Source: an uncultured Methylibium sp. (lineage in GTDB: Bacteria; Pseudomonadota; Gammaproteobacteria; Burkholderiales; Burkholderiaceae_C). Taken from it: a DNA stretch of 40,779 bases. The stretch is from contig NZ_CADEFR010000031.1 of the NCBI RefSeq assembly GCF_902826655.1, positions 1 through 40,779 of the forward strand, in the 5' to 3' direction. Shown in pieces: positions 25,338-33,789 of the stretch (position 1 is its first letter; each line of letters opens with the position of its first letter). Both the position numbers and the translations under genes were made by a program. The notes beneath the pieces are model-generated. The model did not search any database. It was not told where the DNA came from and was given only the letters and a program-made list of their open reading frames with translations.

Positions 25338-27830
25338 ATGCCTTCCGAACTGCTCGCGCTGATCCGCCAGCTCCAATCGCGCTTCGTGCGCAGCGACGAG
25401 CCGCATCGCGTCTTCGACGTCATGCTGCCCGACCTGCTGCGCCTGTGCGAGAGCGAGTACGGCTTCATCGCCGAGGTCTGGCGCGACAGCAAGGGCACGC
25501 CCTTCCTCAAGATCTTCACGATGACCAACATCGCCTGGGACGCGCCGACGCGGGCGATGGTCGAGCGCGAGCGCGTCAACGGCATCGAGTTCCGCAACCT
25601 GAAGACGCTGTTCGGTGCCGGGCTGGTCAGCGGCGCGCCGGTGATCGCCAACGACGCGCCGAACGACCCGCGCAGCGGCGGCGGGCTGCCCAAGGGCCAC
25701 AGCCCCCTGAATGCCTTCCTCGGCGTGCCGCTGCACTACGGCGGCGACATGGTCGGGATGATCGGCCTGGCGAACCGGCCCGGCGGCTACAGCGAGGCGC
25801 TGCTGCAGGACTGGGATCCGCTGTTCCAGGCCATGGCCGGGATCATCGCGGCGGTGCAGCTCGACCGCCAGCGGCGCGCCGCGGAAGCGCGGCTGACCGA
25901 GAGCGACGAACGCTGGCGACGCAGCTTCGAGCTGGCCGGTGCGGGGCTGGCGCAGGTCGACCGCAACGGGCACTTCATCGACGTCAACGATCGCATGTGC
26001 CTGATCACCGGCTGGCCGCGCGTGGACCTGCTGCGCAAGCGCTTCCAGGACATCACCCATCCCGACGACCTGCCGACCGACGAGTCGCTGCTGCAACGCA
26101 TGGTCGCCGGCGAGGTCAGCACCCACAGCCTCGAGAAGCGCTACCTGCGGCCCGACGGCAGCACCGTGTGGACCCAGCTGGCCACCGCGCCGGTCTTCGA
26201 CGCCGCGGGCCGCTTCGAGCACACGGTGACGATCGTGCTCGACATCGACCAGCGCAAGCGCGCCGAGGCGGCGCTGCGCGAGCGCGACCTGCTGTTCACG
26301 CAGCTGACGAACCGCGTGCCCGGCGTGCTGATGCAGTTCCATGCCGACACCGCCGGCCATGCCAGCGTGCCCTATGCCAGCGCGGGCCTGCGGACGCTGT
26401 TCGACCTCGACCCGGACGGCCCGGTGCGCGGCGACGCGCGCCTGATGATCGAGCGCGTCGTCAAGGGCCAGCGCAAGCGCGTCTGGGAAACGCTGGACGA
26501 GTCGGGCCAGTCGCTGCAGCCCTGGGCGCTGGAGTTCGAGATCGACCACCCGGCGCGCGGCCGGCGCTGGGTCGAGGCGCACGGCACGCCGCAGCGCCTG
26601 CCCGACGGCAGCACGCTGTGGCACGGCTACATCAGCGACATCACCGACCGCAAGCAGCTCGACGCCGCGATGCTCAATGCGCAGGCGGCCGAGCGCGCCA
26701 ACGAGGCCAAGACCGAGTTCCTGTCGCGCATGAGCCACGAGCTGCGCACGCCGCTGAACGCGGTGCTGGGCTTCGCGCAGCTGCTGCTCAGCGACGCCTC
26801 GTCGCCGCTGGTCGACGGCCAGCGCACGCGCGTCGGCCACATCGAGCGCGCCGGCCAGCACCTGCTGGCGATGATCGGCGACGTGCTGGACCTGTCGCGC
26901 ATCGAGGCCGGCAGCCTGCCGCTGGCGCTGCAGCCGCTGTCGGTGGCGACGCTGATTGACGAGTCGATCGCGCTGGTGGCGCCGACCGCCCGCGCCAGCG
27001 GCATCTCGCTCTTGCGTCGCAGCGCCGACGCCGAGGCGCGGCTGCACGTGCGCGCCGATCCGATGCGGCTGCGCCAGGTGCTGGTCAACCTGTTCAGCAA
27101 TGCCGTCAAGTACAACCACTCGGGCGGCCAGGTCGTGGTCGAGAGCCAGGCGCTCGGCGACGACCGGGTGCTGATCGCCGTCAGCGACACCGGCGTCGGC
27201 CTGACGCCGGCGCAGCAGCAGCACCTGTTCGAGCCTTTCAACCGCCTCGGTGCCGAGCGCAGCGGCGTCGAGGGCACGGGACTGGGCCTGGCGATCACGC
27301 GGCGCCTGCTCGACCTGATGGACGGCAGCGTGTCGGTGCACAGCCAGCCCGGCAAGGGCTCGACCTTCAGCATCGAGCTGCCGCGCGCGCTGCCGCTGCG
27401 GCAGGCCGCGATGCCGATGCCGTCGCAGGCCGGCCACGGCGGAGGCACGCACACCGTGCTGTACGCCGAGGACAACCGCCTCAACGTCGAGCTGGTCGAG
27501 CAGCTGCTGCTGATGCGCAGCGGCTGCGAGCTGCGCATCGCCCGCAACGGCCGCGAGGCGATCGCCAGCGCCCGCAGCCACCCGCCCGACCTGCTGCTGA
27601 TCGACATGCACCTGGGCGACATGACCGGGCTGGACGTGCTCGACGCGCTGCGCGACGACGACGGCCTGCGTGGCGTGCCGCGCATCGCGCTGTCGGCCGA
27701 TGCGCTGCCGCACAACGTGCGCATCGCGCGCGAGCGCGGCTTCGACGACTACCTGACCAAGCCGGTCGACGTCGCCGAGCTACTGCGCTGCCTGGACCGC
27801 CACCTCGCGGCGCGGCGCGGCGCGGGCTGA
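25338..27830 (+). CDS. Soluble hybrid histidine kinase (GAF-PAS-PAS-HisKA-HATPase-receiver)
   Basis: 830 residues without a membrane segment. GAF-like domain at about 15-175; PAS at about 180-315 (SDERWRRSFELAGAGLAQVD...DIDQRKRAEAALRERD); a second PAS-like region at about 316-450 (DITDRKQLD); HisKA with phospho-acceptor His467 in SRMSHELRTPLN; HATPase with N-box VNLFSNAVKYN near 580 and GTGLGLAITRRLLDLM; C-terminal receiver at about 705-825 with Asp756 in LLLIDMHLGD and Lys in YLTKPVDVAE. Cytosolic signals sensed by GAF/PAS would drive autophosphorylation, then internal phosphotransfer. Its 3' end overlaps the convergent GGDEF gene by 51 bases. Confidence 0.93.
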   Translation: MPSELLALIRQLQSRFVRSDEPHRVFDVMLPDLLRLCESEYGFIAEVWRDSKGTPFLKIFTMTNIAWDAPTRAMVERERVNGIEFRNLKTLFGAGLVSGAPVIANDAPNDPRSGGGLPKGHSPLNAFLGVPLHYGGDMVGMIGLANRPGGYSEALLQDWDPLFQAMAGIIAAVQLDRQRRAAEARLTESDERWRRSFELAGAGLAQVDRNGHFIDVNDRMCLITGWPRVDLLRKRFQDITHPDDLPTDESLLQRMVAGEVSTHSLEKRYLRPDGSTVWTQLATAPVFDAAGRFEHTVTIVLDIDQRKRAEAALRERDLLFTQLTNRVPGVLMQFHADTAGHASVPYASAGLRTLFDLDPDGPVRGDARLMIERVVKGQRKRVWETLDESGQSLQPWALEFEIDHPARGRRWVEAHGTPQRLPDGSTLWHGYISDITDRKQLDAAMLNAQAAERANEAKTEFLSRMSHELRTPLNAVLGFAQLLLSDASSPLVDGQRTRVGHIERAGQHLLAMIGDVLDLSRIEAGSLPLALQPLSVATLIDESIALVAPTARASGISLLRRSADAEARLHVRADPMRLRQVLVNLFSNAVKYNHSGGQVVVESQALGDDRVLIAVSDTGVGLTPAQQQHLFEPFNRLGAERSGVEGTGLGLAITRRLLDLMDGSVSVHSQPGKGSTFSIELPRALPLRQAAMPMPSQAGHGGGTHTVLYAEDNRLNVELVEQLLLMRSGCELRIARNGREAIASARSHPPDLLLIDMHLGDMTGLDVLDALRDDDGLRGVPRIALSADALPHNVRIARERGFDDYLTKPVDVAELLRCLDRHLAARRGAG

Positions 27831-29855
27831 GCCGCCGTCGCGCGGCGCGCCTTCGAGGCGCAGCAGCTCGGCGCGACCGTCCTGCACCGCCGCCTCCAGG
27901 TCCTGCTCGATCGCGCGCAGGGCCGCGTCGTCCGGGGCCTGCACGCGCTCGATGCCGACCGCCCGATGGCGACCCTGGCGCTTGGCCAGGTAGAGCGCGC
28001 CATCGGCCAGCTGCAAGGCGCGCTCCCAGCCGATCGGCGGGCAGCCCGGCAGCGGAAAGCGCGCATGGCCGATCGAGGCCGTCACGGACAGCGGCCCGGC
28101 CGGCGTGTCGACCGGCTCGGCGCCGATCGCCCGCAGCAGCCGCAGCGCGAGCGCCGGCAGGCGCGCCGGCGGCAGCTTGAGCGAGACGACCAGGAACTCC
28201 TCGCCGCCCCAGCGCACGATCAGGTCGTCGTTGCGCGCGGTGCGCTCGATGCGGCGCGCCACCTCGGCCAGCACCGCGTCGCCGGCGGCGTGGCCGTGTT
28301 CGTCGTTGATGCGCTTGAAGTGGTCGATGTCCAGCAGCAGCACCGCGCCCTCGAACACGCCGTCGAGGCCGCGCGCCTTCATCACCGTCTGGAAATGGCG
28401 GCGGTTGGCCAGGCGCGTCAGCGGGTCGCGCTCGCTCAGATCGCGCAGCTGGGCCTGGCGCGCCGCGAGCTGCGAACGGGTGCGGCGCACCCGCCGGTAC
28501 AGCAGCACCAGCACCGCCAGCGCCAGCGCCACGACCAGGGCCGCCAGCCACAGCGCGCGCTGCTGCAGCGCGCGCTGCTCCAGCTCGGCCGCCTTCAGCG
28601 CATTGCCGCGGTTGAGCGCCTCGACGGAGCGTTGCTGCCGCGCGCTGTCGTGGCGCGCCTGCAGTTCGCCCAGCACGACGGCGCGTTCGCGCGCCAGCCT
28701 TGCGTCGTGCAGCGCCCGCTCGCGGTGGAAGACCTCGAGCGCGCTGCGGGCGTCGCCGGCCGCGGCCAGGGCCTCGTCGAGCTGGCGCAGCAGCGCCTCG
28801 GCCAGGGTGTCGGTCGGGCCGAGGCGCAGCGCCTCCTCGACCTCCTGGCGGCCGGCCGCCGTCTGGCCGAGCGCGATGCGCGCCAGGCCCAGCTGGGCCT
28901 GCGCGCTGCGACGCTGCGGCGCGTCGGCCGGCAGCTCGGCGACGGCGGCAAGCGCCGCTTCGGCCGAGCGCCGCGCCGTGGCCGGCTCGGCCGCGAGGCG
29001 CAGCGCCTGCGCCCCCAGCGTCAATGCCGCGCCGCGCAGCAGGCGCGCGTCGGCCTCGTCGGCCTTGGCGAGTGCGCGCTGCGCCAGCAGCTTGCCCAGC
29101 TCGTGCTGGCCGCGCTGCAGGGCCAGCCGCAGTTGCCCCACCAGCAGCCGGGCCTGCAACGCCGGCTCCGGCATCGCCGCACCCTGCAGCAGCCGCCACG
29201 CCTCGCCCTGCGCCGCCTGCGCGCGCTCGACGTAGCCGTAGTCCGCCAGCAGCCGGGCTTCCTCGTCGAGCGCCAGCGCCTCGCGCGGCGCATCGTGCAG
29301 CGCGCGCGCCAGGTGGCGGGCGGTGCGCAGCTGCCGCATGCCGTCCTCGAGCTGTCCGAGCGCACCGGTGATGCTGCCGAGCATGCGAAAGGCCTCGGCG
29401 CGCAGCGCATCGTCGAGCACGCCGGGGCGAACCTCGGCGTAGGCCTGCTCGATGCCGTTCATCGCCTGGCGCGCCTCGCGGCCAGCCACGTCGAGCTGGC
29501 CGGCCTCGCGCGCCAGCCGCGCGCGCACCAGCGCACCGACGCTGCGCAGCAGCGGCTCGGTGTCCCGCGACAGCAGTTCGGCGGCGGCGCGCGCCGCGGC
29601 CGCGTCGTGCCGGGATTCGTGCAGGCCGTCCAGCAGCCACCAGGCCAGCGCGCGCTGCGCCGGCGCGCCCGACACGGTCAGCAGGCGCAGGCGCTGCGCG
29701 GCGATGTCGGGGTCGCTGGCGACGGCACGCTGCGCAGCGTCCAGGGCCACCAGGGTTTCGCTGCCGGGCAGGGGTGCCGACGGCGTCGCGGCGCCCGCGC
29801 TCGACGCCGCGACCAGCAGCCCGACCGCCACTCGGCGCCGCCAGGACGGGGTCAT
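27780..29855 (-). CDS. TPR-containing diguanylate cyclase (second of tandem pair)
   Basis: 691 residues. A signal peptide (about 1-22) is followed by a long periplasmic helical repeat region (TPR-like, about 30-420), one membrane segment (about 432-455, LWLAALVVALALAVLVLLY), then a cytoplasmic GGDEF domain. The catalytic motif is GGEEF at 550-554. The RNDD inhibitory I-site lies five residues upstream, suggesting product inhibition by c-di-GMP. It is translationally coupled to the upstream paralogue by an ATGA overlap (29852-29855). It overlaps the 3' end of the hybrid kinase by 51 bases. Confidence 0.9.
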   Translation of the reverse strand: MTPSWRRRVAVGLLVAASSAGAATPSAPLPGSETLVALDAAQRAVASDPDIAAQRLRLLTVSGAPAQRALAWWLLDGLHESRHDAAAARAAAELLSRDTEPLLRSVGALVRARLAREAGQLDVAGREARQAMNGIEQAYAEVRPGVLDDALRAEAFRMLGSITGALGQLEDGMRQLRTARHLARALHDAPREALALDEEARLLADYGYVERAQAAQGEAWRLLQGAAMPEPALQARLLVGQLRLALQRGQHELGKLLAQRALAKADEADARLLRGAALTLGAQALRLAAEPATARRSAEAALAAVAELPADAPQRRSAQAQLGLARIALGQTAAGRQEVEEALRLGPTDTLAEALLRQLDEALAAAGDARSALEVFHRERALHDARLARERAVVLGELQARHDSARQQRSVEALNRGNALKAAELEQRALQQRALWLAALVVALALAVLVLLYRRVRRTRSQLAARQAQLRDLSERDPLTRLANRRHFQTVMKARGLDGVFEGAVLLLDIDHFKRINDEHGHAAGDAVLAEVARRIERTARNDDLIVRWGGEEFLVVSLKLPPARLPALALRLLRAIGAEPVDTPAGPLSVTASIGHARFPLPGCPPIGWERALQLADGALYLAKRQGRHRAVGIERVQAPDDAALRAIEQDLEAAVQDGRAELLRLEGAPRDGGSARAAPRREVAVQAAQ

Positions 29856-31960
29856 GCCAGTGCCTCCGCGCGCAGGGCCGGCGTCACGGGCCCCGTCACC
29901 TCGGCCAGGGCCACGTCGCCGCGACGCCAGGCCGTCGCCAGGCCGCGCTCGATGCCCGCCACCGCGGCGTCGTCGGCCGCGCGCATCAGGCGGATGCCGC
30001 AAGCGCGGTTGCGGCCCTCGGTCTTGGCGTGGAACAGGGCCGCGTCGACCAGCCCGACGGCACGCTCCCAGGGCAGCGCGAGCTGCGCGGGCACCAGCGG
30101 AAAGGTCGCGAAGCCGATCGAGGCAGTGACCGGCAGGCGGCGCCCGCCGACCTCGAAGGGCGCGCCGCCGATCGCCGCCAGCAGGCGCTCGACCAGCTGC
30201 TCGGCCTGCTCGGCCGGCAGCGCCGGCAGCAGCATCAGGAACTCCTCGCCGCCCCAGCGGGCCAGCAGGTCGGCCTCGCGCAGCACCTCGCGCAGGCGCC
30301 GGGCGACCTCGACGAGCACTGCATCGCCGGTGGCGTGGCCGGCGCTGTCGTTGACGCGCTTGAAGTGATCGAGGTCCAGCATCAGCAGCGTGCCGGTGAA
30401 GGACACGGGCCGCTCGCGCAGCACGGCCTGCACGTGACGCCGGTTGGACAGGCCGGTCAGCGGGTCCTGCCCACCCTGCACGCGCAACTGTTCGTTGGCC
30501 TGCGCCATGGCCCGGTTGTCGCGCCGGTCCTGGCGCAGCAGCAGCACGCCCAAGGCCAGCAGCAGCACGCCGGCCACGGTGCCCAGCGCCCAGGCGCGCT
30601 GGCGCATGCCGTGGCCGCGCAGCTCGGCATCCTGCATCGCGCCCTGTTCGCTGAGCGCCGTCATCTCGCGCTCGCGCTGCTCGCGTTCGTAGCGTTCCTG
30701 CAGGTCGAGCACGGCCCGCTGGTGGTCGCGCTGGCCCAGGCTGTCCTGCAGCCCGCGCAGCTGGTGGTGGGCAGCGATCGCGGCGCGCAGGTCGCCGGCG
30801 CGCTCGTAGGCGGCGGCGGCATCGACCAGGATGGCGGCCTCCTCGGCGCGGGCGCCCTTGCGGCGTTCGATGGCCAGCGCGAGGTCGATGTGCTGGCGGC
30901 CCGCGTCGACGCGCCGCAGGCCGACTTCGGCCAGGCCCAGGTTGGTCAGCGCCAGCGACTCGGCACTGCTGTCGCCCAGCGCGCGCGCACCCGCCAGGGC
31001 CTGCTGGGACGCGGCGAGCGCGGCATCGAAGGCGCCGCCGCGCAGGTGCACGTCGGCGACGTTGCTCAGCACCAGCACCTCCTGGGCCTTCCAGCCGGCC
31101 TCGCGGGCCAGCGACAGCGCGGCGTTGAAGGACACGAGGCTGCGCGCCGGCGACTCGAAGTTGCTGAGGATGTTGCCCTCGGTGTTGCGCACCCGCGATT
31201 GCTCGGCCGGGTTGTCGGCGCGCACGGCCCACTGCCAGGCCTGCGCGTTGAACTCGACCGCCCGCTCGTTCTGCCCGGCACGCTGCAGCACGTAGGCCAG
31301 CTGGTCGAGCGCGCGCGCCTGCAGCAGGGCCCCGTCCGGTTCGCCTTGCAGCGCGCGGGCGATGCGCGCGGTCTCCTGGGCTGCGGCCAGCGCGTGGTCG
31401 AGATCGCCGCGCTCGTAGCGCACCCGCGTCAGCATGTGCTGCAGGCGGAAGCGTTCGACGCTCAGGGCCGGCGCCGGACTGAGCTTCAACGCCGTGCCCA
31501 GGTCGGCCTCGGCGCGCGCCAGCTCGCCCTGCTGGCGCTCGAGGTTGGCTGCGACCGCCAGCGCGGCCGCACGCGCCGCGGCGCTGGCGTGGTCGCGGCC
31601 CAGGGTTTCCAGTTCGCGCTGCACCTCGGCCATCGCGGCGGCGCGGTTCAGGTCGCCGAGCGTCAGGCCCAGCACGGTCAGCAGTTCCAGCCGCACCGCA
31701 CCGGCGCCGGCGCTGCGCAGACGCAGCGTCTGCAGGCTGGACACGGTGGCATCGGGCCGGTTGCGCGCACGCTCGGCCAGCGCGCGCAGGTCGGCGGGCG
31801 CGGGCAGGGCCGCGTCGCCCGTGGCCGCCGGGGGCGTCGTCTCGCCGGTCGCCGCCAGGGCAGACGCCGCCGCGGCGCCGGCCAGCAGGCAGGCCACCAC
31901 GCAGGCACGGGCCAGGAGGCCGGTGCGGTCAAGGCGTCTCATCGTCGTTCTATCGTCCAT
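29852..31960 (-). CDS. TPR-containing diguanylate cyclase (first of tandem pair)
   Basis: 702 residues. Export segment at about 15-37, periplasmic TPR-like helices (about 55-440, including repeats such as SLALTNLGLAEVGLRRVDAGRQHI), one membrane segment at about 452-475 (ALGTVAGVLLLALGVLLLR), then a GGDEF domain. The catalytic motif is GGEEF at 570-574, with the inhibitory I-site READ five residues upstream. It makes c-di-GMP in response to a periplasmic signal. The start is uncertain: 31960 or an ATG at 31942, neither with a good ribosome binding site. A TACACT -10-like element at 32014-32019 (minus) lies upstream. The two cyclases share architecture. Confidence 0.9.
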   Translation of the reverse strand: MDDRTTMRRLDRTGLLARACVVACLLAGAAAASALAATGETTPPAATGDAALPAPADLRALAERARNRPDATVSSLQTLRLRSAGAGAVRLELLTVLGLTLGDLNRAAAMAEVQRELETLGRDHASAAARAAALAVAANLERQQGELARAEADLGTALKLSPAPALSVERFRLQHMLTRVRYERGDLDHALAAAQETARIARALQGEPDGALLQARALDQLAYVLQRAGQNERAVEFNAQAWQWAVRADNPAEQSRVRNTEGNILSNFESPARSLVSFNAALSLAREAGWKAQEVLVLSNVADVHLRGGAFDAALAASQQALAGARALGDSSAESLALTNLGLAEVGLRRVDAGRQHIDLALAIERRKGARAEEAAILVDAAAAYERAGDLRAAIAAHHQLRGLQDSLGQRDHQRAVLDLQERYEREQREREMTALSEQGAMQDAELRGHGMRQRAWALGTVAGVLLLALGVLLLRQDRRDNRAMAQANEQLRVQGGQDPLTGLSNRRHVQAVLRERPVSFTGTLLMLDLDHFKRVNDSAGHATGDAVLVEVARRLREVLREADLLARWGGEEFLMLLPALPAEQAEQLVERLLAAIGGAPFEVGGRRLPVTASIGFATFPLVPAQLALPWERAVGLVDAALFHAKTEGRNRACGIRLMRAADDAAVAGIERGLATAWRRGDVALAEVTGPVTPALRAEALA

Positions 31961-32102: not shown

Positions 32103-32172
32103 AAAAAAATGAGGGGAGCGGGACGTGCTGGTCAGGGGCTCGCTCTCATCCACCCCGACCCGCCCGCTCCCC
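32103..32172 (-). terminator. Intrinsic terminator of the small-gene unit
   Basis: On the minus strand, GGGGAGCGGG (rc of 32163-32172) pairs perfectly with CCCGCTCCCC (rc of 32113-32122). A second stem (GGTC-GGGG with CCCC-T-GACC) forms inside the loop. Three bases later comes a run of seven T (A-tract 32103-32109 on the plus strand). This is a textbook rho-independent terminator for leftward transcription. It lies just after the last small open frame ends at 32181. Confidence 0.8.
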
Positions 32173-32180
32173 CTTGGACG

Positions 32181-32384
32181 TCAACCAGTCCGCAACCTTT
32201 GCCGCGGCAGTGCCGCGGGCATGACGAACGGCAGTTCGAGCTGCCGCGAGGCGCTGCGCGTGGGCAGCACCTGACCCTTGCCCGTCGCCGCCGGCCCGAG
32301 TCCGCCGAAGCCGCTGTCGCGCTGAGGGGCCGTGGCGAGACGGGCCATCTGCGAGGCAAGGCTGAAGCGGGGGCTGCTGCTCAT
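32181..32384 (-). CDS. Small uncharacterised protein (second gene of small-gene unit)
   Basis: 67 residues, basic, rich in Ser, Ala, Arg and Gln (MSSSPRFSLASQMARLAT at the start, LELPFVMPAALPRQRLRTG at the end). No signal peptide or membrane helix. I do not recognise it. Codon use is high-GC at third positions, like real genes of the window. There is no good ribosome binding site before the ATG. It lies in the same frame as the upstream small gene, with one TGA and 16 sense codons between, so it may be coupled translation, a separate small protein or the second half of one longer, interrupted gene. It precedes the terminator. Confidence 0.5.
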   Translation of the reverse strand: MSSSPRFSLASQMARLATAPQRDSGFGGLGPAATGKGQVLPTRSASRQLELPFVMPAALPRQRLRTG

Positions 32385-32432
32385 GGGAGGCTCGCCAACG
32401 AGATTTCCAACGACGCTTTCTCTGTATCCGTG

Positions 32433-32675
32433 TCAGCGGCCGCTCAGCCACTCGCTGGGCGCGAACTCCATGCCCGCGAGCACGCCGTTGATCGGCGCTG
32501 CGCCCTGGCCCGGACCCGCCGAGCGCAGTGCGCGCTGCAGGCCCTTGAGCCAGCCCGGCGCTGCCGCGCTGGCCTGCCGCTCGCGAGCCGCGAGCCGCAG
32601 CATCGAGGACACCGAACCGAGCGTGCCGCCGCGGGCGGCCTGCGTGCGCAAGCGGGGTCTGAGGGTCGGGGCCAT
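32433..32675 (-). CDS. Small uncharacterised protein downstream of a sigma-54-type promoter
   Basis: 80 residues, strongly basic in the first half (MAPTLRPRLRTQAARGG), helical middle (SMLRLAARERQ), then a Gly/Pro/Ala-rich end (GWLKGLQRALRSAG ... EFAPSEWLSGR). No signal peptide. Evidence that it is expressed: an AGGAGGA ribosome binding site 6-7 bases before the ATG, a sigma-54-type promoter about 22 bases ahead of the ATG, high-GC third codon positions, and a downstream terminator. It resembles no family I know. The basic N-terminus could contact nucleic acid or membrane, but this is inference. Confidence 0.65.
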   Translation of the reverse strand: MAPTLRPRLRTQAARGGTLGSVSSMLRLAARERQASAAAPGWLKGLQRALRSAGPGQGAAPINGVLAGMEFAPSEWLSGR

Positions 32676-32707
32676 GCGGATTCCTCCTGCCGTGTTGGCA
32701 GCACAAG

Positions 32708-32723
32708 TGCATCTTGTGTGCCA
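32708..32723 (-). promoter_or_regulatory. Candidate sigma-54 (RpoN) promoter
   Basis: On the minus strand the 16-base box reads TGGCAC-ACAAG-ATGCA, with the GG and GC dinucleotides exactly 10 bases apart as required for -24/-12 elements. All six TGGCAC bases match, and four of five in TTGCA. Transcription would begin near 32697, giving a leader of about 22 bases with the ribosome binding site inside it. The same sequence also contains the short dyad CACAAG-TGCAT-CTTGTG. Confidence 0.65.
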
Positions 32724-32769
32724 TGGCCCGCGCGCCCCTGGCGACGGCGCCCGCCACCGGCCACCGGCT

Positions 32770-32785
32770 CCAGTGCGTGCACTGG
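32770..32785. promoter_or_regulatory. Palindromic upstream activating site candidate
   Basis: CCAGTGC-GT-GCACTGG is a perfect 7-bp inverted repeat with 2-base spacer. Its centre is about 80 bases upstream of the predicted sigma-54 start, a usual place for enhancer-binding activators. The activator gene is not visible in the window. Confidence 0.45.
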
Positions 32786-32838
32786 GTCACACGGCAAGCT
32801 CGCAGGCGCCGCCGCCGCGCCGGGCGTTGGTCACACGG
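32785..32838. repeat. Pair of 10-bp direct repeats upstream of the sigma-54-type promoter
   Basis: GGTCACACGG occurs at 32785-32794 and 32829-32838, 44 bases apart (about four helical turns). Both sit upstream of the predicted promoter. They could be activator binding sites on one face of the helix, but this is inference from spacing. Confidence 0.4.
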
Positions 32839-32839
32839 G

Positions 32840-32879
32840 CGACGTTTTTCGTCGACCGGGCGACAGGGCGTTGCGCCCT
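32840..32879 (-). terminator. Possible terminator of the hydrolase gene
   Basis: Just after the hydrolase stop (32908, minus strand) two hairpins lie in the gap: AGGGCG-TTG-CGCCCT at 32865-32879 and CGACG-TTTTT-CGTCG at 32840-32854. Neither is followed by a true T-run, so termination is uncertain. Confidence 0.35.
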
Positions 32880-32907: not shown

Positions 32908-33789
32908 TCAGCGCAGGTGGTCGAGCACCGCGGCCGCGACCTCGGCATCGCCGAGCAGGCGCCGATGGCCCAGGCCCTCGGTCGGCCACAGGCGCACGCC
33001 GGAGCCCAGCGCGGCCAGCCGGCGGCTGATGTCGAAAGGCGCAACGCGGTCGGCCCGGTCGTGGACGATCAGCGTCGGCAGCTGCAGCGCCCGGCCCAGC
33101 TGTTCGGGCTCGAAGCGGTCGAGCAGCAGGCCCTCGCTGGCTTCGATGTGGGCCTGCATGCGCTCGCGCTGCGCCGGGTCCAGCCCCAGGCCGCGGGCGA
33201 ACCAGCCCAGCACCTGGCGCGGCGGTGGCGAAGGCGCCAGCAACACCAGCCGGCGCCACGCCAGGCCGCGCTGCAGCGCGGCGGCGGCGGCCAGCGCGCC
33301 GAGCGAATGCGCCACCACCGCGTCGATCGGACCCAGCCGCGCGACGGCGTACTCCAGCGCGCGCAGGAACTGCGGCAGCGTGCTGCGCTCGCCGTCGCTG
33401 CGGCCGTGGGCCGGGAAGTCCAGCAGCACCGGATCGAAGTCGTCGGCGCGCAGGGCCTCGGCCAGCGGCAGCAGCTGCAGCGCGTGGCCGCCCCAGCCGT
33501 GCAGCAGCAGCACGCGCCGTCCGGCGCCGGCCCCGGCGAGTCGATAGACGGTCAGCGACGCCCGCTCGAAGGGCCAGCGCTCGATCTGCCAGCCCGGCGG
33601 GGCGGCCAGCCGGCGCGCGACGCGCTTGCCCGGCAACGGCGTGAAGAACAGCCGTGCCGCGAGCCGCGTGCCCAGGGCCGGCCGCAGCGCATGCGCGAGC
33701 CGCAGGCCGGCGCCCAGCCAGGCGGCCACGCGCGCGCCGCCGAACAGATCGGCGGCCGGATTGGCGGCCGCCTGCGCGGTCGAGGCCAT
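32908..33789 (-). CDS. Alpha/beta hydrolase
   Basis: 293 residues. The hydrolase fold is clear: LLLHGWGGHALQLLPLAEAL, nucleophile Ser162 in VVAHSLGALAAAA, Asp247 in IVHDRADRVAPF and His275 in EGLGHRRLL. The first 65 residues (RLAHALRPALGTRLAARLF-like) are not part of the core. It could act on an ester or acyl substrate; substrate not known. It starts 4 bases after the stop of the 37-residue membrane protein and is probably co-transcribed with it. Both lie downstream of a dyad shared with the tetR promoter, so TetR is the likely regulator. Confidence 0.9.
   Translation of the reverse strand: MASTAQAAANPAADLFGGARVAAWLGAGLRLAHALRPALGTRLAARLFFTPLPGKRVARRLAAPPGWQIERWPFERASLTVYRLAGAGAGRRVLLLHGWGGHALQLLPLAEALRADDFDPVLLDFPAHGRSDGERSTLPQFLRALEYAVARLGPIDAVVAHSLGALAAAAALQRGLAWRRLVLLAPSPPPRQVLGWFARGLGLDPAQRERMQAHIEASEGLLLDRFEPEQLGRALQLPTLIVHDRADRVAPFDISRRLAALGSGVRLWPTEGLGHRRLLGDAEVAAAVLDHLR

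Follow-up and report, generated by a model that had tools for sequence, protein, structure and literature searches.

Comparative evidence for a sigma-54 operon of two microproteins and a structured RNA in Burkholderiales, a probable member of the PilR regulon

Results

Layout of the locus

The window, i.e. the whole 40,779-nucleotide stretch of DNA that was analysed, belongs to an uncultured Methylibium sp. whose genome comprises 4.2 Mb in 142 contigs. On its minus strand, within 32103-32838, a sigma-54-type box, two short open reading frames (ORF A and ORF B) and a two-tier terminator follow one another in this order (Table 1), and a check of the sequence located every element that a first-pass annotation had named, on the same strand and at the same places. 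The neighbouring genes vary between loci: a gene for a dipeptide-type ABC ATPase lies at most about 850 bases upstream in 29 of the 59 loci that carry the 3' RNA described below (RNA loci), and a hydrolase gene does so in 14 of the 59, several of these with a TetR gene and an ABC gene further up, loci with short flanks being scored as neither ABC nor hydrolase in these counts. After the unit, the window contains a pair of adjoining TPR-GGDEF-like frames (27780-31960, minus strand), and a GGDEF relative also lies downstream of the unit in several other loci.

Table 1. Features of the unit and of its flanks in the window
Feature	Position	Strand	Remarks
Composite upstream activating site	32822-32857	minus	core dyad CGACGAAAAACGTCG at 32840-32854, then TGTGAC; proposed PilR site
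CRP/Vfr-like dyad TGTGACCCAGTGCACG	32776-32791	minus	consensus CGTGAcnnnnntCACG; overlaps the palindrome at 32770-32785
Sigma-54 -24/-12 box TGGCACACAAGATGCA	32708-32723	minus	predicted; inferred transcription start near 32697
Shine-Dalgarno sequence of ORF A GCAGGAGGAAT	32680-32690	minus	kept in the same-genus genomes G001 and G003
ORF A, 80 aa	32433-32675	minus	family motif CRGGASSLLRL, here GSVSSMLRL
ORF B, 67 aa	32181-32384	minus	short conserved segment towards the C-terminus
QLELPF codons in ORF B	32226-32243	minus	candidate hexapeptide beta-clamp-binding motif
Structured RNA	32103-32193	minus	small GGAC/GTCC hairpin, long two-tier stem, invariant loop AGAGCG, T7 tail
Alpha/beta-hydrolase gene	32908-33789		one flank of the unit
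TPR-GGDEF gene	29852-31960	minus	other flank of the unit; Pfam run on 29852-31960 only

Conservation and distribution

In a BLASTN comparison with 60 relatives the stretch aligned up to the terminator in three of the five same-genus genomes, with 67-68% identity, the alignments beginning at the box in G004 and just after it in G001 and G003, and only its 3' part was matched in another genus. In a multiple alignment of the same-genus relatives the -24/-12 box itself is kept. This conservation is more than chance, although the flanking genes differ, and it refutes the view of an empty or chance stretch; frames and box alike, whose lack of conservation in relatives would have refuted the operon of the first-pass annotation, recur.

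A covariance model of the RNA, built from four sequences, found it in 45 of 399 genomes of the family, the own genome included, as a single copy in 43 of the 45, and in two of 300 genomes of the order, again including the own one and both belonging to this family. A pattern scan of named genomes returned 67 loci, 50 of which score with the RNA model; the other 17, labelled as other phyla or classes, have no RNA model score and were discarded as chance matches. The 50 scoring loci are distributed over Methylibium, Rhizobacter, Piscinibacter, Sphaerotilus, Leptothrix, Rivibacter, Albitalea and other Burkholderiales or broad labels, and one of them, L086 (PLYU01000246.1), lies in a MAG labelled Myxococcales. 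This locus contains a fused ORF like those of the Burkholderiales loci L098 and L105, and its contig is probably mis-binned.

Searching the family with ORF A gave matches in 56 of the 399 genomes at an E-value of 0.01 and in 40 at 4.5e-8 or below, of which 37 have the RNA too. Box, A and B are present in G075, G088 and G301, where the RNA is not recognisable by eye, which shows that the two proteins are retained independently. The matches of A in G116 and G023 are weak and were rejected, inspection having revealed neither an A motif nor a unit. In three loci (L063, L128, L077) box, upstream site and RNA surround a 37-38 residue peptide of the MKxxRWxxWLAA type that replaces A and B, and in Sphaerotilus/Leptothrix-type loci (L122, L062, L106, L067, L087, L057) the same RNA is preceded by one or two peptides of the MKxRWxxWLAAAAL kind, with no recognisable box. 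L115 shows the end of one such peptide before the RNA, the upstream sequence being too short to judge the box.

A sigma-54-type promoter

Of the 59 RNA loci, near-duplicates included, 55 have enough sequence, and 46 of these contain a box scoring at least 13.4 at a distance of 250-620 bases 5' of the RNA. Such a box occurs in 17 of 1100 shuffled windows (1.5%) and, if the opposite strand of the 55 loci is read, in a single one; L090 has no box. The own genome encodes RpoN (TIGR02395, 449 bits, above the cut-off). Comparison across the loci thus bears out the sigma-54-type box that had been annotated, and the prediction of an operon with a promoter of the sigma-54 class is well supported.

Two small conserved frames

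ORF A, recognised by the pattern SS[LMVI][LI]R[LP], is present in 43 of the 59 RNA loci, and ORF B in 46, the remaining 13 giving no B; as B was collected by a regular expression for its Q-type tail motif, the count of 46/46 for the motif is circular. The alignments comprise 32 of the 43 A sequences (the window being L034) and 31 of the 46 B sequences, three fused ORFs and others, including truncated or odd-start ones, being omitted. The consensus of A reads RRxRPAxPxCRGGASSLLRLAQPAAxRLPxxxxLxxWxxRAA and that of the B tail VLQSxRAPAQLSLFLRP. Over 21 hand-picked pairs A has a pooled pN/pS of 0.32 and B one of 0.55, single B pairs reaching up to 0.77, and the differences at the three codon positions (197, 151 and 510 in A; 235, 200 and 371 in B) fall mostly on the third position in A and less so in B. 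The two annotated genes of 80 and 67 residues are hence conserved as frames, and this comparison indicates that both are under purifying selection.

The A and B motifs lie within one ORF in L105, L086 and L098 (62, 71 and 62 residues, given the start codons selected). The Rivibacter locus L119 has a short version of A, of 47 aa, directly next to B, and in L080 the only frame seen is B-like, with the degenerate motif QRSLIL.

The proteins matched nothing known to the first-pass annotation, and neither ORF A nor ORF B has a family above the cut-off in Pfam, NCBIfam or PHROGs. A Pfam reovirus match to B (E 0.023, below the cut-off), a match of A to a designed repeat in the PDB (E 0.0039) and a PHROG match (E 0.48) were treated as chance. 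The AlphaFold (AF2) model of A consists of two helices with a pLDDT of 56, a low confidence that is too poor for a fold search. By tblastn, one representative A and one representative B had no match in plasmids and one representative B none in phages, and the RNA pattern had 0 matches in viral contigs.

The tail motif of B

The motif occurs as QLSLF (24 of 46), QLCLF (4), QLSFQF (3), QLTLPW, QLELPF and QLSFF (2 each) and in nine other forms found once each, so that among the 46 regex-collected B sequences 33 have a pentapeptide and 13 a hexapeptide form. Arg occupies position 2 in three off-pattern motifs (QRSLF, QRALPL, QRSLIL), and another one reads QMSLAL. In the accessible part of the respective source, the clamp motif is given as QL[S/D]LF or QxxLF, with QLSLPL as a tight binder (PMC12309361), and is described as usually C-terminal in transposases (PMC4549789). 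The interchange of QLSLF with QLELPF, QLTLPW and QLSFQF among orthologues fits the groove of the clamp, as the clamp motif allows, and the motif suggests that B may bind the beta sliding clamp.

Structured 3' RNA

The two-stage stem followed by seven T, which had been annotated as an intrinsic terminator, is conserved in structure. In an alignment of 45 of the 48 non-redundant sequences from the 59 loci (three near-duplicates omitted), 95.6% of the cells of an 18-pair stem are paired, compared with 88.7% after shuffling; two-sided changes occur in 12 of the 18 pairs, and 0 of 500 shuffles reach the pairing or the covariation values. Pairing falls to 61-63% on shifting the partner by one column, and the loop AGAGCG as well as the flanks GGGC and GTCCC are invariant across the 45 sequences. 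Rfam had 0 matches in the window, the only match at E up to 1, mir-328 (E 0.75, below the cut-off), being treated as chance. As it ends in a T run, the predicted RNA is at least the terminator, and it may possibly be a 3' sRNA as well.

Sites upstream of the promoter

Two kinds of repeats had been listed upstream of the box in the first-pass annotation, and they met a mixed fate. The direct repeats CCGTGTGACC (= GGTCACACGG) are indeed found at 32829-32838 and 32785-32794, 44 bases start to start, and so is the palindrome CCAGTGCACGCACTGG at 32770-32785, but the repeats are not shared by relatives and the palindrome is not kept in them. Since they are not conserved, both were rejected as activator sites; they overlap two elements that are conserved, the composite site and the CRP-like dyad (Table 1).

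The composite site emerged from motif discovery in the 190 bases upstream of the box of 45 loci (47 loci minus one near-identical and one short row), which yielded ccGACnaatccgGTCggncnTGTAACnangcncTta with a log-likelihood of 646 vs. 116 and 117 in two shuffled controls. It takes the form of a dyad, cGAC-N7-GTCg, followed by TGTAAC, and has a posterior >0.5 in 43 of the 45 upstream regions; the window reads TGTGAC after the core dyad, most relatives TGTAAC. Its distances to the box cluster at 77-78, 100, 109-112, 119-122, 128-134 and 142, and helical phasing gives a resultant of 0.80 at 10.75 bp (n=43, the sequences not being independent). Steps of about one helical turn are as expected for an activator that is held on one face of the helix. 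Scanning 26 unit-bearing genomes with a pattern of the composite site gave a single match in each of 12, at most 750 bases from the RNA of the unit, and 0 in the remaining 14, whereas the pattern run in reverse as a control had 2 matches across the 26; a wider regulon defined by this pattern was thus rejected, the single matches lying at the unit itself.

With the upstream site masked, a second dyad of the form CGTGA-N6-TCACG surfaces (log-likelihood 106 vs. at most 18.6 in six shuffled controls), which we take to resemble a CRP/Vfr site. Its posterior exceeds 0.5 in 34 of the 45 loci, the other 11 units having no confident site. Of these 34 sites, 28 keep a spacing to the box of 25-26, 35-37, 47 or 68-70 bases, the window having 68, and six lie elsewhere. 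A TyrR/PhhR-type or CbrB-type box, considered for TGTAAC-N6-CTTAC, was dropped after the dyad had turned up at pilA.

Sites common to the unit and pilA

For pilA, 24 loci were found, 17 hand-listed and 16 scored, representing seven of eight genomes; L193 of G022 was left out of the scoring, as it has no centred pilin. A 15-mer matrix derived from the units, which covers the dyad and not the TGTAAC half of the site, matches the promoters of 11 of 11 pilA genes (seven genomes), at most 1 of 500 shuffles being as good in each case, although these genes are not independent, three of G136 adjoining each other. The boxes of ten of them score at least 13.7 and that of one 12.7, and in G003, for example, the dyad reads CGACCAAAAGTGTCG at pilA vs. 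CGACCAAAAGCGTCG at the unit. For five pilin-like genes with a box of at most 12.0, 5, 66, 205, 270 and 290 of 500 shuffles are as good, and 0.8% of 3000 random windows, some of them units themselves, reach 13 bits for the dyad. The CRP-like dyad, searched with a matrix from 21 hand-picked unit sites, is found in seven of the 11 pilA promoters (at most 5 of 300 shuffles as good) at 24-25, 35, 46 and 56-57 bases; it is weak in two (30 and 58 of 300) and missing from two (271 and 186 of 300). In genomes without the unit, ten pilin loci from eight genomes have a strong dyad in three cases, a moderate one in one and a weak one or none in six.

In G119, G293, G136 and G226, which represent three genera, one contig carries both the unit and pilA, with some 52-64 kb between them, possibly an old synteny. 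Unit and pilA are far apart on one contig in G003 (about 200 kb if the contig is circular) and on separate contigs in G000 and G147.

Candidate activators

The own genome has 12 matches to the Sigma54_activat domain, seven of them strong, and strong matches number three in G022, three in G238 and six in G136. The search for a matching bEBP gene, which had been proposed as a check, leads to only two activators that are orthologous in these four unit-bearing genomes, a PilR-like protein and NtrC. The PilR-like protein, 68-76% identical across the four, reaches no NCBIfam model cut-off, and a histidine-kinase frame lies just upstream of its gene in 3 of 3 loci checked; this response regulator is a candidate PilR. 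NtrC, with 75-79% identity, is over the curated ntrC cut-off and adjoins NR(II). Another response regulator, L145, has orthologues in 76 of the 399 family genomes (E 1e-120) and was dismissed as the activator, being absent from the unit-bearing genomes G004 and G022.

The principal regulator of pilAB in Azoarcus is PilR, and pilAB has a potential sigma-54 promoter, consistent with RpoN dependence (PMC3262810), and in Pseudomonas aeruginosa PilR acts on pilA, the regulon of Vfr including pilus genes (PMC6058289), as far as the available sections of these two papers go. Because the pilA promoters carry the same sites and a PilR-like regulator is among the only two shared activators, the unit is probably under the control of PilR and part of its regulon.

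Discussion

The first-pass annotation had proposed an undescribed, activator-controlled small-protein operon under RpoN, and the comparative data support this proposal. Based on the sites shared with pilA and on the tail motif of B, we consider it moderately probable that the unit encodes a PilSR/RpoN-controlled pair of microproteins that belongs to the type IV pilus regulon and docks on the replication clamp. As at pilA, PilR, driven by the sensor kinase PilS, would bind the GAC-N7-GTC enhancer and a CRP-like protein would occupy the second dyad, the two jointly activating sigma-54 polymerase on the -24/-12 box. The resulting transcript would encode the two microproteins and carry the conserved hairpin at its end. 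Protein B would expose a beta-sliding-clamp-binding peptide of the QLSLF type near its C-terminus and dock on DnaN, where it may compete with clamp clients or recruit them, and protein A might work with B via its GGASSLLRL segment. Under a shortage of pilin, or while pili are rebuilt, the pair would hold back or readjust replication or clamp-dependent repair. We infer that PilR is the protein at the enhancer, that B binds the clamp, that A acts jointly with B and that the cell responds in this way, the last of these steps requiring both that the motif mediates docking and that docking affects replication. A more far-reaching version, which we put forward tentatively, has pili wired to the replisome: PilSR, sensing the state of pilin or of the surface, would directly drive a clamp-plugging microprotein, so that the status of the pili would govern replication or the DNA processing that depends on the clamp, which comprises what becomes of pilus-imported DNA, and the co-transcribed RNA would extend the signal to other messages.

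The main product might instead be the RNA, i.e. a sigma-54/PilR-dependent 3' small or dual-function RNA that acts by base-pairing of its AGAGCG loop with targets or by a protein that recognises this loop, in which case the ORFs would be secondary and replaceable. Conservation is highest in the loop and the base stem, and promoter and upstream site precede the RNA in L063, L128 and L077 even though A and B are replaced there; however, A and B appear to be under purifying selection, they accompany the promoter without a visible RNA in G075, G088 and G301, and a strong terminator would be needed anyway, so that we rate this reading as possible but rather unlikely. The activator could also be another one. 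NtrC, which would place the operon under nitrogen starvation, is the sole other activator common to the four genomes compared and is shared by them as fully as the PilR-like protein; it is set aside solely because the upstream dyad is that of the pilA promoters. The NtrC consensus, GCAC..GTGC, differs from the composite site, and we deem control by NtrC very improbable.

Two further alternatives concern the partner and the role of B. PilM binds a short INLLPW-like peptide of PilN, to which the QLTLPW and QLELPF forms of B are, in our view, somewhat similar, and the promoter sites common to the unit and pilA would fit a B that binds a type IV pilus component such as PilM rather than the clamp, A and B being accessories of pilus assembly. 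Gln at position 1, Leu or Phe at +3 and an aromatic residue or Leu at +4/+5 are, however, the pattern of the clamp motif, and 24 of the 46 B sequences, regex-collected as they are, read exactly QLSLF, which renders this alternative improbable. A and B, small and adjacent as their genes are, may also be regarded as a pair similar to toxin and antitoxin that acts on the clamp in the manner of SocAB, B arresting replication and A neutralising B or targeting it for proteolysis; clamp-targeting toxins are known, namely SocB and RipA (PMC9690074 and PMC12795458, in the parts of the text available). Against this stand the occurrence of both motifs in a single ORF in L105, L086 and L098, the single copy, counted by the RNA, in 43 of 45 genomes and the failure of the representatives to match plasmids (one A, one B) or phages (one B), and we hold such a pair to be distinctly improbable.

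The proposed PilSR/RpoN-controlled, clamp-docking microprotein pair resembles several known systems in part. With pilA under PilSR and RpoN in P. aeruginosa and Azoarcus it has in common the sigma-54 box and a PilR-like regulator beside a histidine kinase, and the upstream dyad and the CRP-like dyad are common to the unit and to pilA of the same genomes; in contrast, the targets at the unit are two microproteins and an RNA, and no such target was met in the available sections of PMC6058289 and PMC3262810. SocB from Caulobacter and RipA from Streptococcus, compared by description only, resemble B as bacterial proteins with the sliding clamp as their presumed target, SocB reaching it via the usual clamp-binding motif according to the accessible text, whereas the B gene is part of a sigma-54 operon with a second microprotein and its representatives have no plasmid or phage match. 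The N-terminal peptide QLSLPL, which we take to be the clamp peptide of Hda, is of the hexapeptide type QLxLPx, just like QLELPF of the window, but B, with about 50-67 residues, is too small for an AAA+ domain. CrcZ, GlmY, Qrr and NrsZ are sigma-54-dependent sRNAs and share with the unit an activator-controlled sigma-54 transcript that ends in a conserved structured RNA; unlike them, the RNA of the unit has no Rfam match, and its transcript also encodes two selected proteins. Full-text literature, with subscription papers mostly outside its scope, contained no description of the unit or of a relative among the matches listed.

A seemingly empty stretch contains, in several genera of Burkholderiales, a pair of protein families and an RNA family for which Pfam, NCBIfam, PHROGs and Rfam gave no match above the cut-off. 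The promoter motif common to pilA and the unit, probably a site for PilR, is useful at once for mapping the regulon in this group. For the question of how surface contact through pili changes the cell cycle of bacteria, a clamp-binding microprotein that is co-regulated with pilin would, if our proposal is true, constitute a testable molecular link.
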